Notes under the pieces: model-generated
What the model was told of the DNA's origin: nothing
Databases searched by the model: none
What the model saw: the letters and a program-made list of their open reading frames with translations, nothing else
Translations under genes and position numbers: made by a program
Part shown: piece after piece, positions 7,796 to 23,402 of the stretch
Numbering within the stretch: position 1 is the first letter of the stretch
Layout: the number at the start of each line of letters is the position of its first letter
IMG/VR virus record: IMGVR_UViG_3300009285_008581
Location: 1-23,402 of that record
Length of the DNA stretch: 23,402 nucleotides
Origin: a virus
Direction: 5' to 3' (one strand)

Positions 7796-8035
7796 CTACT
7801 CTTGGAGGATGTGCTGCCGGACGTGCAGCGCGATGGCGCGCAGGATGTCGATCTGCCCAAACTGCCCCTTCGTCAGACCGACGAGACGCATGCCCGGCTC
7901 GATGGTGCCGATCGCTTCGCGCGCCGAGGCGATGCAGGCCCGGACCTTCGGTGCCGTGGGGGCGAAACGCTTCACGGCCGGGCCGGACGCCGGCATGGAC
8001 AAGAGGATAGCTTGCGTGGTAGAATCAGATCGCAT
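7796..8035 (-). CDS. Hypothetical protein, first gene of the late operon (79 aa)
   Basis: The ATG at 8035 has GGAGG 6 nt upstream and lies about 63 nt after the predicted start of transcription from the promoter at 8105-8134. A longer version starting at 8104 is excluded because that codon would lie at or before the transcription start. The product contains a GLTKGQFGQIDILRAI segment. It resembles, from memory, the front part of a larger phage/plasmid protein family that begins with a TKGQFS.IDL motif. If so, this copy is only a short remnant. Otherwise it is an unassigned small protein co-transcribed with the terminase genes. Confidence 0.6.
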   Translation of the reverse strand: MRSDSTTQAILLSMPASGPAVKRFAPTAPKVRACIASAREAIGTIEPGMRLVGLTKGQFGQIDILRAIALHVRQHILQE

Positions 8036-8104
8036 TCGAGACCTCCATCTCGGTGCCGCGCCCCGGGCTGTTTGCCGCAGCGCCGGGGTCAACTCTGCCC
8101 TCAT

Positions 8105-8134
8105 ATTTTACCACGAAACTACCGAAAAAGTCAA
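8105..8134 (-). promoter_or_regulatory. Promoter of the head/packaging operon
   Basis: On the minus strand, TTGACT (8134-8129) and TAAAAT (8110-8105) are separated by 18 bp, with TGG just before the -10 (extended -10). Transcription would start near 8098 and give a ~62-nt leader to the ATG at 8035. The surrounding 30 bp are clearly more AT-rich than the rest of this intergenic region. Confidence 0.65.
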
Positions 8135-8139
8135 GCGCC

Positions 8140-8383
8140 GTGCGGGTTCTCTGGCACCCGCACCGCCCCCAGAATCACCGGGGGCCAGCGCTGAGGGGTG
8201 CCGGCGCGCTGCCCGGATGCTCGCCTGCCGGGGAACAGAGCACCCCGGAGATCGGGCCGCCGCCACGACCCGATCTCCGGGGCTGTGGGCCGGGAGGATG
8301 CGGCCCAGGGGATCGCTTTCAGCCGCGATCCCCGAAATGCACGAGGGCCTGCGCCTACCGTGCAGAGAGACGCAAGCCCTCCT
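8140..8383 (-). ncRNA. Predicted structured RNA: chain of perfect hairpins behind a strong promoter
   Basis: Downstream of the promoter at 8390-8419 there is no plausible gene but a row of inverted repeats placed almost end to end. In minus-strand order the stems are: 8381-8371 with 8353-8343 (6+4 bp, one mismatch), 8333-8325/8316-8308 (9 bp), 8307-8301/8292-8286 (7 bp), 8282-8269/8256-8243 (14 bp, 12-nt loop), 8185-8180/8170-8165 (6 bp) and 8163-8156/8147-8140 (8 bp). The first stem begins at the predicted transcription start. The last stem is followed by ACTTTTTC and could end the transcript just as the second promoter begins. It could be a regulatory or packaging-related RNA, a long structured leader, or DNA structure tied to the terminase cut site. 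Transcription is inferred, not shown. Confidence 0.45.
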
Positions 8384-11614: not shown

Positions 11615-12368
11615 CCCTCATCACTCGCCGGACGATCCCGCGGAACCACCCGAGGATGTCTCGCACTGGCCTGCCCTCGCACAGTCCGCACGTCGAGGCG
11701 AACTCCAGGGCGGCGTCTCGGAGCAGAGCAGGGGTGCGCGGGTCCTGCTCATATCGCTTGGCCAGCGTGTTCACGCACAGCATCCACTCGCCTTCCGGCA
11801 CCGTGCTCCAGGTCGGCACCTGCGCAAGGGCGTCGAGGATCTCGGTGCGCTGTTCCGGGGTCAGGCAGCCGACGTGCGGAGCCGTTCGCTCCCGCCGCCC
11901 GCCGCCCGGCGAAGCCGGTGCGGATGGTTTTACCATCCGCTTATGTACATCTGCTTCTGCCTCTGTACGCTTGACAAACGTTGGACAAACGTTGGATCCA
12001 ACGTTGGATCCAACGTTTTGCTGGCGATCGCGCCAGCGGCGCCAGCGTTGAGTCGGCGGGGAAACCTGGCGGTGGCAGAAGTTGCGAACGACCAGGGCAT
12101 CGCCGTCGAGCACCAGCATACGGAGGGAGAGCAGGGCATCACGTGCCCCTGCCCACTCGGGCAGCGGCACGTCCAAGAACTTGGCAATGGCCTCATCGGT
12201 CATCACCTGGCCGGGTACGATTTCGAGCCGGCCGGACGCCCGCCCATCGTCGTCGCACTCACCAGCCAACGCCAGGAGGCCGACCCAACACCAGCGCTGT
12301 GCTGGCGTGAGCGTGCGGATCTTGCGATCCGCCGCAATGTCCACCCACAGTTTGACCCAGTGACCCAC
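11397..12368 (-). CDS. Replication initiator (phage replisome organizer type)
   Basis: Starts at a GTG (12368) with GGAG 8 nt upstream. The N-terminus (GHWVKLWVDIAADRKIRTLTPAQRWCWVGLLALA.. then a DDDG turn and VPLPEW) matches the winged-helix N-terminal domain of phage replisome organizer proteins, which bind the origin. Residues ~117-130 (NVGSNVGSNV) are encoded by a run of 11-12-bp repeats, probably the binding sites (see 11977-12017). A helical domain follows (LTPEQRTEILDALAQ.. to WFRGIVRRVM), compatible with a DnaD-like or helicase-loader-contacting region. The last ~70 residues (Gly/Pro/Arg-rich) lie over the DnaC-like gene in another frame and look like shadow sequence. The functional protein may end near 11610. 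Confidence 0.7.
   Translation of the reverse strand: MGHWVKLWVDIAADRKIRTLTPAQRWCWVGLLALAGECDDDGRASGRLEIVPGQVMTDEAIAKFLDVPLPEWAGARDALLSLRMLVLDGDALVVRNFCHRQVSPPTQRWRRWRDRQQNVGSNVGSNVCPTFVKRTEAEADVHKRMVKPSAPASPGGGRRERTAPHVGCLTPEQRTEILDALAQVPTWSTVPEGEWMLCVNTLAKRYEQDPRTPALLRDAALEFASTCGLCEGRPVRDILGWFRGIVRRVMRDDADGDASGRGGHPPPGPGGGARDGGGPARTLRAGKVAEQARRRAELGGGGEADPGALPAGHPTPAAPGEGG
11977..12017. other. Iteron-like repeats inside the initiator gene: candidate replication origin
   Basis: Four AACGTT cores at 11977-11982, 11988-11993, 12000-12005 and 12012-12017, spaced 11, 12 and 12 bp. The two junctions between cores 2 to 4 form overlapping copies of the perfect palindrome TCCAACGTTGGA. They lie within the replication initiator gene, next to a comparatively AT-rich stretch (about 11925-11975). 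In lambda-type phages the initiator binds iterons inside its own gene to open the origin, so the same arrangement is inferred here. Confidence 0.55.
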
Positions 12369-13680: not shown

Positions 13681-14319
13681 TCACTCCTCGCCGGCCAGGG
13701 TCGCCAGCCGGCTGCCCGCCTCCTCCGTCACCTGCGCGTGCATCTCGGCCGCCATGCGCAGCAGCTCCCGGGCGCAGCGCTGCGAGGCCGAAACCAGGTA
13801 GACGCTCTCCGGGTGCCGCGACGAGACACAGCGCAAGCCGGAGTCCACCCACCGGTACAGGCTGCGTTTGCCGGCCGGCAGGCTCCAGGGCATGACGACC
13901 CGGAACCTGCGCCCAGCAAGGGCAATCGCCGGCACCTCGATCCGGGCGAAGCCTGTCGGCGTGCCTTCGACGGCGCCCGGCACTCCCGTGCCGTGCTCGC
14001 GGTAGCCGACTGCCACCCGCACCTCGTGGCCGCTCGCGGCCCGCAGTCTCAGGAACTCCGTGAGCCCACTCCACTTCGCGCCCTGCTCCGCCTCGACGCG
14101 CTGCTCGCGGCACCAACGGCACTCCCGCCCCTCGAGGCGACAGTGAGGGCACTCGGGGTTCGGCGCGCGCTGTGGCTCGCCGAACGCACACTCCCGGCAC
14201 GTGCTTCCCGTGCCGGCCCGGCCCGGCCGCGTGCGGCAGATCGGGCAGCACGTTGACGTTTGCGCCGGAGACGTGCTATCATACTGCCCGGCGCTCGTCG
14301 GGTGTCCGTTAGGATCCAT
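13681..14319 (-). CDS. Cys-rich zinc-ribbon protein (212 aa)
   Basis: The N-terminal 74 residues contain four CxxC knuckles (about C25/C28, C41/C44, C57/C60, C67/C70), enough for two zinc ribbons. Residues ~85-212 form a separate domain with RFRVVMPWSLPAG, LYRWVDSGLRCV and a C-terminal helix. The ATG at 14319 is preceded by GGAGG at 8 nt and follows the previous TGA by one base. Nucleic-acid binding is a fair guess from the knuckles. No named family is recognised. A 299-aa plus-strand frame over the same region is rejected as a shadow. Confidence 0.65.
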   Translation of the reverse strand: MDPNGHPTSAGQYDSTSPAQTSTCCPICRTRPGRAGTGSTCRECAFGEPQRAPNPECPHCRLEGRECRWCREQRVEAEQGAKWSGLTEFLRLRAASGHEVRVAVGYREHGTGVPGAVEGTPTGFARIEVPAIALAGRRFRVVMPWSLPAGKRSLYRWVDSGLRCVSSRHPESVYLVSASQRCARELLRMAAEMHAQVTEEAGSRLATLAGEE

Positions 14320-15960: not shown

Positions 15961-16467
15961 TCAGTTCTGCTCCCCGAACAGTGACCACACCCGGAAGGCA
16001 TCACGCGGCCAAAACACCATCCCCGCGTTTCCCATGGCCTTGCCGCCATAGGTCCGCATGTGCGGCCGAAGATCGTCCAGCCTGGCATAGAGCACGGCAC
16101 CCGATGTTAACTCGTGGATGAAAATCCACACTTCACAGCCCGTGATTTGCTGCACCTTCTGATAGTGGTTGTAATGGCGCAGCGACATGCCGTGCTCCAG
16201 CTTGCCCGTGCTGCGTGTGAGCGTTGGCGCGCTCTTCGTCTTCACTTCTGCCCACAGCCGCTTGCCGTTGCGGGCAATGTCCAGATCCGGGATCACGTAC
16301 TCCGCGCGTGCCCCCTGCAGGCGAGGTGCCTTGTCCTTCTCCTCGCCTGCATAGTCGTAACTGGGCACGACGTACCAGCCGGCCCGCTGCAGAAGCCCTG
16401 CAACCAGCCGCTCTCCCTTCCGGCCCTTCGCCCACTCCTCAGTCTCCCGGAAACCGACTTGTCTCAT
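15961..16467 (-). CDS. PD-(D/E)XK nuclease, Hjc/VRR-like
   Basis: A 168-residue protein with the core of the PD-(D/E)XK fold: KGRKGERLVAGLLQRAGW (Glu19), then IPDLDIARNGKRLWAEVKTK, giving Asp61 and the E-x-K pair Glu74/Lys76. This is the arrangement of Holliday junction resolvases of the Hjc type and of related phage nucleases. A later HYQKVQQITGCEVWIFI segment fits the end of the domain. The start (ATG 16467) lies within the methyltransferase gene, overlapping it by 29 nt, with a weak ribosome site, so coupling is likely. It may process recombination intermediates with Bet, standing in for the truncated RuvC-like gene. Confidence 0.7.
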   Translation of the reverse strand: MRQVGFRETEEWAKGRKGERLVAGLLQRAGWYVVPSYDYAGEEKDKAPRLQGARAEYVIPDLDIARNGKRLWAEVKTKSAPTLTRSTGKLEHGMSLRHYNHYQKVQQITGCEVWIFIHELTSGAVLYARLDDLRPHMRTYGGKAMGNAGMVFWPRDAFRVWSLFGEQN

Positions 16468-17671
16468 TACCGTGCGACACCCAACCAGCCCGCTCGCGGC
16501 GGGCGAACAACTCCAGCTTTGAGCCGGGGCACAGGGCTTCTACGAGCGCGTAGAACTCCTCGGGCTTGCGCGAGTGCTCGCGCAGTGGCGAGGGCAGGAG
16601 CGTCGTCTGGTTCGTCAACTGTACCACGGGCCGGCCCTTCACGGCGAGGATGCAGTGTTCCGTCTGCCCGCGCAGCCAGTCGCCGGTTCCCATCCGGTCC
16701 TTCGCCCAGGTGAGGATCGTCTTGTGCGTGAAGCCCCAGGCATCCAGGATCCCGAAGGCGTCCGGCATGTGTGCGTTCGTCGTCCACAGCCAGAGGATGC
16801 AGTCCTCGCCGGCCAACGCCGGCACCGGCAGCGCCTTGATCTCGTCAGTGCTCATCATAGGGTAGGGGCAGCGTGCCCGGTGCGTGGGATCCTCGGCGCG
16901 CTTCTGGTACTGCCACGGCGGGTCGAGCACGATCACGCGGAAGGGGCCCGTAGGTAGGGGCGGGGGCTCCTGGCGGATCGCCTCAGCGGCAGCGTTGATG
17001 GTGATGTGCCGCTCGGCCGCCCTTACCGTCTCGCGCGGCCGGTCCGCAATCCGCATTGCCACCTGCCGTTGTTGCGCTTCGGGCATGCGCGCCAGCTTCA
17101 GAAGCTCCGTCTTGCTGTCCGCAAGTGGCGTCTCCCGAATCTGCTCCTTCACGTCCGGCGCCAGCTTCGTGGCGATCTGGACTTCATGCCGCACGGTGCG
17201 CGGGGTGACGCCGGTCTTGGCGGCGGTATCGTCGGCGAAAGCGGGGGTTGCGGTGAGTGCGGAAATCATTTCCGCACTCACGTTGAGGCCCTTCTTGCGT
17301 TGCTCCTCTGGCTTCGCCTCCGGGTGAAGCGTCTCATAGATGCGCTTGCGCTCCACAATCCGCTCGCTGTGCGCAAGCACCGTCAGCTCGTCGCGGATCA
17401 GGTTCTCATCGATCTCCACGAGCCGGGCGTGCAGATCGTCCAGGGCCGCCCGCCGGGCCGGAATCGTCGCCCACCCCAACGCTCGGCAGGACTCCAGGCG
17501 GTTGCGGCCGGCAAAGAGCGTGCCGTCCGGCCCGATGATAATTGGGTTCAGCAGGCCGATCTCGCGGATGCTCTCCATCAGGTGCCCCAGGTCGCCCGCA
17601 GCGCGCCGGCCCGGGCGCACCTTGACGTCAGCGATGGGGACCTGTTCGATTTGCTCGCTGGGCAGAAGCAT
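16439..17671 (-). CDS. ParB-like nuclease domain fused to MT-A70 adenine methyltransferase
   Basis: 410 residues, two domains. The N-terminal ParB/Srx-like part has GTLFAGRNRLESCRALGW (about 50-67) and a following helical HTH region (TAAKTGVTPRTVRHEVQIA, ~149-167). The C-terminal MT-A70 methyltransferase has the catalytic DPPW at 250-253, WLWTTNAHMPDA at ~294-305 and GFTHKTILTWAKDRMGTGDWLRGQTE. Such fusions are frequent in phages and plasmids and are expected to methylate adenine in DNA, which can protect phage DNA or mark its regulation. The ATG at 17671 has AGGAG 5 nt upstream. It is the first gene of the early minus-strand operon, ~170 nt downstream of its promoter. Confidence 0.88.
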   Translation of the reverse strand: MLLPSEQIEQVPIADVKVRPGRRAAGDLGHLMESIREIGLLNPIIIGPDGTLFAGRNRLESCRALGWATIPARRAALDDLHARLVEIDENLIRDELTVLAHSERIVERKRIYETLHPEAKPEEQRKKGLNVSAEMISALTATPAFADDTAAKTGVTPRTVRHEVQIATKLAPDVKEQIRETPLADSKTELLKLARMPEAQQRQVAMRIADRPRETVRAAERHITINAAAEAIRQEPPPLPTGPFRVIVLDPPWQYQKRAEDPTHRARCPYPMMSTDEIKALPVPALAGEDCILWLWTTNAHMPDAFGILDAWGFTHKTILTWAKDRMGTGDWLRGQTEHCILAVKGRPVVQLTNQTTLLPSPLREHSRKPEEFYALVEALCPGSKLELFARRERAGWVSHGNETSRFPGD

Positions 17672-17806
17672 CGGCTCTCCTGTGTGCCGGGTAGGGTAGG
17701 GCGTAAGGGTGGCGCCCGGCGGGTGTCACGGCCGGCCTGGGTCGGCTCAGAAATGCGGAGCGCTATGCGGCGCCCTCTTGAAATGCTCCCTCTGTATGGC
17801 TGCCGC

Positions 17807-17836
17807 TTGGTGTTATGCGCAGCCGTGTGGTATACT
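17807..17836 (+). promoter_or_regulatory. Plus-strand promoter for the HTH gene
   Basis: TTGGTG (17807-17812), an 18-bp spacer, then TATACT (17831-17836) with TGG before it (extended -10). The predicted start is near 17843, ~64 nt before the TTG start of the HTH gene. Its -10 faces the -10 of the opposing promoter 12 bp away. Confidence 0.5.
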
Positions 17837-17848
17837 GTAGCTACCGTG

Positions 17849-17878
17849 AGTATAGCATACGCCTAAACATCCTGTCAA
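17849..17878 (-). promoter_or_regulatory. Minus-strand promoter of the replication operon
   Basis: On the minus strand, TTGACA (17878-17873), an 18-bp spacer and TATACT (17854-17849) preceded by TGC: a consensus extended -10 promoter. The start is near 17842, giving a ~170-nt leader to the methyltransferase gene. It overlaps, face to face, the plus-strand promoter at 17807-17836. Confidence 0.75.
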
Positions 17879-17906
17879 GCCCCGTTATTCAGGGGAGGTA
17901 TAGCTG

Positions 17907-18209
17907 TTGACAAACATTAGCCAGATCGCTAAAATGCCATCCGAGCAAGGAATGGCGCGCATAACTGACGATCAATGGCGCGAGGACATGAAGACAACGC
18001 TCAAGGAACTCCACATCACCATGCAGGAGCTGGGCAGGGAACTGAAGCTCTCCAAAGGACGGATCTCCCAGATCTTGTCTGAAGGAGAGCCGATTCCGTT
18101 TGGGTTCCCGGAACGCGCACGGACGGCGTTCCAGCGCATCATGGCCCGCCGAGCGGAGAGCGTCGGCCTTCGGGTACGAATCCCCAGGGATGAGGAGCCT
18201 CGCGAATAG
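17907..18209 (+). CDS. Small HTH DNA-binding protein, putative repressor
   Basis: 100 residues. A helix-turn-helix of Cro/C1 type is visible at about 36-60 (ITMQELGRELKLSKGRISQI), preceded by a helical N-terminus and followed by a basic tail. It starts with TTG at 17907; the GGGGAGG 8 nt upstream supports this start. The gene lies immediately beside the face-to-face promoter pair, so binding there is the natural guess. It ends with TAG and is followed by a hairpin. It has no oligomerisation or protease domain, so it is closer to a Cro-like or antirepressor-type regulator than to a full CI. Confidence 0.65.
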   Translation: MTNISQIAKMPSEQGMARITDDQWREDMKTTLKELHITMQELGRELKLSKGRISQILSEGEPIPFGFPERARTAFQRIMARRAESVGLRVRIPRDEEPRE

Positions 18210-18217
18210 CCCCCTTC

Positions 18218-18238
18218 CCGGAAACGACTTGTTTCCGG
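18218..18238 (+). terminator. Hairpin after the HTH gene
   Basis: CCGGAAAC (18218-18225) pairs with GTTTCCGG (18231-18238) around a 5-nt loop, 9 nt after the stop codon. No U run follows, so termination may be partial or the hairpin may act in RNA stability. Confidence 0.45.
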
Positions 18239-18265
18239 CGCCCCCCATAAATTCGCCCCTATGCC

Positions 18266-18295
18266 TTGACAAGAAGTTTACCTCCGTGCTATACT
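18266..18295 (+). promoter_or_regulatory. Plus-strand promoter leading into the structured intergenic tract
   Basis: TTGACA (18266-18271), an 18-bp spacer and TATACT (18290-18295) preceded by TGC: consensus -35 and extended -10. No gene with a good start follows for ~380 nt; the transcript would begin near 18302 with the inverted-repeat region. Confidence 0.75.
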
Positions 18296-18301
18296 AAGGG
18301 C

Positions 18302-18541
18302 CAGGCGCCACCTCTCCATCCGGGCGTTCCGTTCCGGCAATCGGGCCGGCGGTGCCACGGCAAGCTAGCAAGGTCACATCCCCCGGATGGGGCGGCCAGG
18401 CGCCAGCGCGGGCCGGCCGGGTCTACTCACCAGCGAATACCCGGCCGGCGCCGCGCTGATCGACCCATTGCGCCGGGGGGCTGTTCCACCTGCCCCTGCT
18501 CCAAGACGGGCCTGGGGAGCAGAGGCCGCCTAATACGAGTG
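18302..18541. ncRNA. GC-rich structured intergenic tract between inward-facing promoters
   Basis: No convincing gene. The largest hairpin pairs 18406-18422 with 18439-18456 (6+11 bp, one bulged base, 16-nt loop). A long-range pairing joins CCATCCGGG (~18316-18324) with CCCGGATGG (~18383-18391), flanked outside by two GGCGCC copies. A further stem near 18497-18524 pairs CTGCTCC with GGAGCAG. A plus-strand promoter (18266-18295) and a minus-strand promoter (18547-18575) both point into it, so RNA from either strand is possible. A minus-strand transcript would run antisense to the HTH gene. It could be a regulatory RNA or a long leader of the operon starting at 18681. Transcription is inferred. 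Confidence 0.4.
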
Positions 18542-18546
18542 GGAGG

Positions 18547-18575
18547 AGTATACACCCATCCCGAGCGCTTGTCAA
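18547..18575 (-). promoter_or_regulatory. Minus-strand promoter, divergent from the LexA-like gene promoter
   Basis: On the minus strand, TTGACA (18575-18570), a 17-bp spacer and TATACT (18552-18547). Both hexamers are consensus. It fires leftward into the structured tract and toward the HTH gene in antisense direction. Confidence 0.7.
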
Positions 18576-18578
18576 ACA

Positions 18579-18626
18579 AATACGTTCTTGCAAACGCACG
18601 TATTCTAATACGCTTGTATTGCAAAC
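18579..18626. promoter_or_regulatory. Operator-like repeats between divergent promoters
   Basis: AATACG (18579-18584), CGTATT (18599-18604) and AATACG (18607-18612) form a palindrome, CGTATT-CT-AATACG, plus a distal half site. TTGCAAAC occurs twice as a direct repeat (18588-18595 and 18619-18626), 31 bp apart. They fill the space between the two divergent promoters and overlap the -35 of the plus-strand one, as expected for regulator binding sites. Confidence 0.55.
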
Positions 18627-18642
18627 AGGAGTGTGCTATACT
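18614..18642 (+). promoter_or_regulatory. Promoter of the plus-strand early operon
   Basis: TTGTAT (18614-18619), a 17-bp spacer and TATACT (18637-18642) preceded by TGC. Transcription would start near 18649, ~32 nt before the LexA-like gene. This excludes the upstream GTG at 18633 as its start codon. Confidence 0.65.
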
Positions 18643-18680: not shown

Positions 18681-18983
18681 ATGGGCCGGAACCCCGCGAC
18701 GAAGTTGTCTGACGAGAACAGGGACGTGTTGCAGGCATTCGTAGACCTCTGGGAGCGCCATTGCAAGGCGCCGACCTACTCCCAGGTTGCCCTATGGGTG
18801 GGCCTCAAACGAGGGTCTAGTGTGTCGCCTCACGTACAGATCCTCCGGCGGCTGGGCTACATAGAGCGCGGCCCACATCGAGAGGTGCTCGTGAAGCTGC
18901 TGCCGGACGGCACTCCCTACCCACGCAACCGTGCCATCGCCGCAATGTCCAGTGCCGAGCCTGAAGGCAGCGATGCAACCTGA
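18681..18983 (+). CDS. LexA-type winged-helix regulator without protease domain
   Basis: 100 residues. The first 65 match the LexA DNA-binding domain layout: ENRDVLQAFVDLWERHCKAPTYSQVALWVGLKRGSSVSPHVQILRRLGYIER, with the wing region after it. The LexA autoprotease (Ser/Lys dyad) part is absent, so it cannot respond to RecA by self-cleavage. The ATG at 18681 has GAGGAGG 8 nt upstream. First gene of the plus-strand operon, directly behind a promoter with operator-like repeats, so autoregulation and control of the divergent promoter are likely. Confidence 0.7.
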   Translation: MGRNPATKLSDENRDVLQAFVDLWERHCKAPTYSQVALWVGLKRGSSVSPHVQILRRLGYIERGPHREVLVKLLPDGTPYPRNRAIAAMSSAEPEGSDAT

Positions 18984-23221: not shown

Positions 23222-23402
23222 GCCCTGCGCCGCCACGCTCAACTCGTAGCTCATCACCTGAACCGCAGCCGCCAGGTTGAGCGAGGAAAAATCCGGGTTG
23301 GCGGGAATATTCACCAGCACCTGCGCCTTGCCCATTTCTTCATTGGTCAGGCCGGACATCTCGGTGCCAAACAGCAGCGCCACCGGCTGTTTCGTTGCCT
23401 GT
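23222..23402 (-). CDS. trmJ: Internal fragment of TrmJ-type tRNA methyltransferase (bacterial)
   Basis: Read from the right edge leftward the frame gives QATKQPVALLFGTEMSGLTN, then NEEMGKAQ, NIPANPDFSSLNLAAAVQVM and SYEL.VAAQG. These are the signature motifs of the SPOUT tRNA (cytidine/uridine-2'-O-)methyltransferase TrmJ of Beta/Gammaproteobacteria, with the GTE/GLTNEE loop and the SSLNL knot motif. Similarity stops at about 23222, where the upstream phage operon begins, and the gene's C-terminus is missing. Codon use and GC content are lower than in the phage genes. It is most simply a chimeric contig end, less likely a prophage-host boundary. Confidence 0.75.

Follow-up and report, generated by a model that had tools for sequence, protein, structure and literature searches.

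The window, by which we mean the whole stretch of DNA analysed, is a linear virus fragment from IMG/VR of 23,402 bases with a GC content of 67%. A pair of promoter-like elements, facing each other, sits in a 235-bp gap between a methyltransferase gene that reads leftward and a gene for an HTH protein that reads rightward, each with a good Shine-Dalgarno (SD) sequence and each starting in the right direction. From right to left, the leftward block comprises the ParB-N/MT-A70 methyltransferase, a small conserved ORF, a RecT-like annealing protein, a DnaC-like helicase loader, the terminase subunits and a portal that carries a Mu-F-like domain, followed by additional genes in the direction of the left end. 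The features referred to below are as follows.

15961-16467, leftward block: small conserved ORF
16439-17671, minus strand: ParB-N-like plus MT-A70 methyltransferase gene, opening the leftward operon; SD AGGAGA, ATG at 17671
17807-17836, plus strand: promoter-like element; TTGGTG at 17807-17812, 18-bp spacer, TGTGGTATACT at 17826-17836, predicted start A17843
17821-17864, no strand: imperfect dyad; arms 17821-17836 and 17849-17864, 13/16 matched, centre 17842.5
17837-17844, no strand: GTAGCTAC palindrome; centre 17840.5, not coaxial with the -10 dyad
17849-17878, minus strand: predicted promoter; TTGACA at 17878-17873, 18-bp spacer, TATGCTATACT at 17859-17849, predicted start A17842
17907-17935, plus strand: rival promoter-like match, TTGACA-17-TAAAAT, overlapping the HTH start codon; rank 11 in the matrix scan
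17907-18209, plus strand: HTH protein gene, 100 aa, opening the rightward block; TTG start, SD GGGGAGG 8 nt upstream, HTH at residues ~31-62
18681-18983, rightward block: short protein with a LexA-type DNA-binding domain

Read from the TTG at 17907, the HTH gene has a codon-position GC pattern resembling that of the other genes. Pfam, PHROGs and NCBIfam gave no Cox/Apl match for its product, and a structure prediction made without relatives reached a pLDDT of 54. No relatives of this protein were detected in viral contigs, species genomes or GenBank phages, the first two of these searches reaching close relatives only, and the LexA-like protein had none in viral contigs. Likewise, a relative carrying the control region was not found in the viral contigs, species genomes or GenBank phages searched; in the relatives examined for the methyltransferase, the gene lies within an operon and lacks such promoters, and a second contig of the phage (L022), 100% identical, ends at about position 13898 of the window, before the control region. 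In one E. coli genome, trmJ gives a 72% match over 134 bp to 23253-23386, the right end of the window; trmJ being a cellular gene, the contig may here be chimeric or run into a host junction.

Identical TATACT hexamers, inverted with respect to each other and separated by exactly 12 bp, were found at 17831-17836 on the plus strand and at 17854-17849 on the minus strand (AGTATA at 17849-17854), just where the sequence-only reading had placed them. With their extensions, the two boxes, TGGTATACT (plus) and TGCTATACT (minus), face each other across 17828-17857, and in both the hexamer, close to TATAAT, is directly preceded by TRTGN, as in TGTGGTATACT (plus) and TATGCTATACT (minus). The minus promoter is near consensus (TTGACA-18-TGCTATACT), with 11 of 12 positions matched and a TG preceding the -10 box. 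Compared with TTGACA, the -35 hexamer matches at 6/6 positions on the minus strand and at 3/6 on the plus strand, both at 18 bp, a match from which promoters of the extended -10 class benefit but which they can do without. The plus element, being this poor in its -35, was missed by a simple promoter scan, and a promoter of this kind would rely on its full extended -10. Both elements are best read, by their consensus, as candidate sigma-70-type promoters. The promoters look unequal, one near consensus and the other with a weak -35, and the minus promoter would be expected to dominate. Predicted starts, placed about 7 bp past the -10 boxes, fall on an A in both directions and at adjacent positions, 17843 (plus) and 17842 (minus). 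The predicted RNAs thus diverge without overlap, whereas the predicted melted regions overlap.

The sequence elements, their statistics and the gene layout are direct observations. The window has five copies of TATACT, where shuffles lead one to expect 0.77, and all five lie inside 17831-18642; because of this clustered excess, the two extended -10 boxes are unlikely to be a product of chance. Among intergenic-region shuffles, 0.05% had a facing TATACT pair at 40 bp or less and 0.65% had TGnTATACT on the plus strand; the facing pair was absent from all 200 shuffles of the whole window. We also built a position matrix from eight other promoter-like sites of the window, leaving the plus site out, and scored approximately 46,700 positions. 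These training sites were chosen by resemblance to the sigma-70 consensus, and the matrix therefore asks for likeness to the phage's promoter-like sites, not for activity. By its extended -10 alone the plus site came third, and when the -35 was added it came eighth (sum 20.8, compared with 13.9 for the best other untrained position); the scan had nine clear outliers, namely this site and the eight used for training. Under the same matrix the plus -35 scored above 98% of positions; two training sites have a 17-bp spacer, placing their -35 rows one base out of register, which affects the -35 part only.

These frequencies bear on the simplest alternative, that an AT-rich spot happens to lie beside a real minus promoter. 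Such a juxtaposition would fit the poor plus -35, and many dyads of the window have an equal symmetry score. The exact symmetric dyad was moreover searched for as a recurring element and rejected: its 25 viral matches, all in AT-rich records, mostly within reading frames and with poor -35s, were attributed to chance. The rarity in intergenic-region shuffles of both the plus-strand TGnTATACT and the facing pair argues in the other direction, and we regard a coincidence of this kind as highly improbable.

The -10 boxes had also been described as forming a dyad. The symmetry is the best of the intergenic region, but some 27 dyads of equal or better score occur within the window, and most of it follows of necessity from setting two good extended -10 boxes face to face. 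Beyond the promoter consensus the arms match at 4/5 further positions (AG-CG), a weak hint of an operator. The palindrome GTAGCTAC in the 12-bp centre, previously put forward as a possible operator, is present, but its centre lies 2 bp off the axis of the -10 dyad and an 8-bp palindrome inside a 12-bp centre has a chance probability of about 2%; we therefore rejected it in that role. AATACG is found at 18532, 18579 and 18607, with its complement at 18599, so that four of the five copies of the window fall within 81 bp. This group, about 700 bp from the promoter pair, is likely to be an operator cluster, and a likelier operator than GTAGCTAC.

In the viral collection, 78 matches, spread over 75 records, pair a strong extended -10 promoter with a second extended -10 that points at it across 2-30 bp. 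The spacings peak at 2-4 and 7 bp, peaks inflated by several identical or near-identical sequences, and because only 2 of the 78 lie at 12 bp, phages of the IMG/VR collection do not make repeated use of this spacing. The far-side -35 of the short-spaced class is usually poor, and by sequence the class looks more like operators than promoter pairs. Three records (L080, L122 and L097) carry two consensus promoters face to face, whose -10 boxes lie 29-30 bp apart and whose -35s are TTGACA on either side; in some of them a hairpin-like repeat separates the boxes. Judged by their far-side TTGACA, these look like real face-to-face pairs.

In another reading, only the minus promoter is real: the TGGTATACT arm on the plus strand would be one half of a dyad operator covering the minus start region, where a phage repressor would bind, the HTH gene being read from another promoter. 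The extra arm matches (AG-CG) are consistent with this, as is the frequent presence in the viral collection of an inverted -10-like arm, operator-like and with a poor far-side -35, 2-4 or 7 bp downstream of strong TTGACA-18-TGnTATAnT promoters. A candidate for the other promoter exists in the match at 17907-17935, which lies inside the HTH reading frame and was absent from the sequence-only account. However, the 12 bp seen here falls outside those operator-like spacings, and the plus arm has the complete extended -10 seen in other promoters of this phage, which places it among the top nine sites, as well as a -35 that beats most positions under the same matrix. Furthermore, a promoter internal to the gene would leave a well-placed SD and TTG start untranscribed, and the ATGs downstream of 17907-17935 are without a well-placed SD. 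We consider this minus-only arrangement unlikely.

Within the gap from 17671 to 17907, no good candidate other than the plus promoter was found for feeding the HTH gene upstream of its TTG start, which the plus promoter would reach through a 64-nt leader, and the minus promoter would reach the methyltransferase ATG after 171 nt. The gene layout and the SD sites thus bear out the earlier assignment of the two directions to the HTH gene and to the methyltransferase/replication operon. Neither leader showed unusual RNA structure compared with shuffles (z of 0.02 and 0.20).

Several observations were made elsewhere in the window. A promoter-like site with TTGACA and TACAAT (-10 at 8395-8390, minus strand) is followed downstream by 284 nt, 8100-8383 on the minus strand, that fold far beyond shuffles (-170 kcal/mol, z -6.3, 0/200 shuffles) and form a series of strong hairpins before the terminase operon; without an Rfam match, this stretch is a candidate structured leader or non-coding RNA. 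Also ahead of the terminase operon is a facing promoter-like pair at 8020-8110, TAGAAT (plus, 8020) and TAAAAT (minus, 8110), both extended -10, with 79 bp between the boxes. Iteron-like repeats, AACGTTGGA and TCCAACGTT, occupy 11960-12020 within an ORF upstream of the DnaC-like gene, in a region that also holds the best dyad of the window (centre 12002.5), and are a candidate replication origin. Near-consensus promoters at 18266-18295 (plus) and 18575-18547 (minus) converge on a GC-rich stretch, 18302-18540, which has no convincing gene and whose two strands both fold somewhat better than shuffles (z -2.0 and -2.8).

It had been claimed that two polymerases exclude each other at the promoter pair and that one direction of transcription would thereby shut off the other. 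With the predicted starts adjacent and the predicted melting regions overlapping, mutually exclusive opening of the two promoters is a sound inference; that one direction shuts off the other does not follow. In E. coli, the basal activity of all five bidirectional promoters tested was too low for polymerases to compete, and competition emerged upon strong activation of one direction (PMC12825309). In addition, pR of phage 186 interferes with pL and not vice versa (PMC7498355). Exclusive binding, in the light of these systems, is not in itself a switch.

The further suggestion of a bistable switch, in which the HTH protein and an opposing regulator would lock transcription one way, is not supported, as it needs a regulated feedback of which the sequence gives no sign. 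The geometry does imply exclusive binding, and one of the two targets is the HTH gene. However, the leftward operon opens with a methyltransferase, not an opposing regulator; no integrase or full-length repressor was recognised among the scanned proteins of the window, itself a fragment; the promoters look unequal; no shared operator was found; and exclusive binding alone gives no competition at basal activity (PMC12825309). A bistable switch is accordingly very unlikely here. An HTH-binding motif common to the promoter-pair site and other sites was likewise not found. More speculative still is a minimal exclusive pair sharing one melted region, at which the 100-aa orphan HTH protein would tip the orientation of the polymerase and so favour either its own gene or the methyltransferase/replication operon, a switch without the classical repressor pair; we give this only the slimmest of chances. 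If the phage has a decision point, 18532-18642 is a stronger candidate than the promoter pair, because back-to-back promoters (18575-18547, minus, and 18613-18642, plus), just upstream of the LexA-like gene, coincide there with four of the window's five AATACG sites.

Our preferred reading, to which we assign a probability of about 0.62, is that the locus is a divergent control point of the phage early region, with overlapping face-to-face sigma-70-type promoters that would open exclusively, the minus promoter being the stronger. Promoter activity, start sites, mutual exclusion and relative strength are here predictions from sequence. The transcripts would run apart, yet the recognition sequences of the two promoters overlap face to face. 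The minus promoter, with a consensus -35 and an extended -10, would drive the ParB/MT-A70 methyltransferase and the replication operon leftward, and the plus promoter, an extended -10 with a poor -35, the HTH gene rightward. One polymerase at a time would open the site, so that strong activity of the minus promoter would reduce that of the plus; as a guess, the HTH protein may bind nearby and shift the balance. If both promoters work, the site would be a compact natural template for polymerase competition, with starts adjacent and closer than in P2-like phages; if not, this is an ordinary phage control region. In either case, the clear promoter consensus of an uncultured phage (TTGACA-18-TRTGNTATACT) allows transcription units to be proposed from sequence.

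The early RNAs of P2-like phages overlap. As in these phages and 186 (pR/pL, Pe/Pc), two phage promoters face each other at a control point, and the gene of an HTH protein is one of the first targets. The lytic and lysogenic promoters of P2-like phages are face to face and 40-60 bp apart (PMC7498355), whereas the predicted starts here are adjacent. Furthermore, the leftward gene here is a methyltransferase and not a repressor, so that a pairing of immunity-repressor and Cox/Apl genes is lacking, and neither Cox/Apl direct repeats nor immunity repressor operators were seen.

The bidirectional promoters described by Warman and Grainger use a single -10 region for both directions, and the starts are separated by 7-25 bp, most often 18 (PMC10268837). 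Pseudo-symmetric -10 sequences, divergent RNAs and a polymerase that may bind in either orientation are common to these and to our pair. In contrast to their reciprocally overlapping -10 elements and starts at 7-25 bp (Warman et al.), the boxes here are separate, 12 bp apart, and the predicted starts are 1 bp apart, although measured starts could shift by a few bp.

The promoter pair is best read as a known kind of arrangement, that of overlapping divergent promoters. In E. coli, bioA/bioBFCD and argE/argCBH have overlapping divergent promoters with a central operator and a repressor, both proven. Although the elements here are only candidates by sequence where operator and repressor are proven in those systems, the layout is the same, with overlapping face-to-face promoters of divergent genes and a symmetric element between them.
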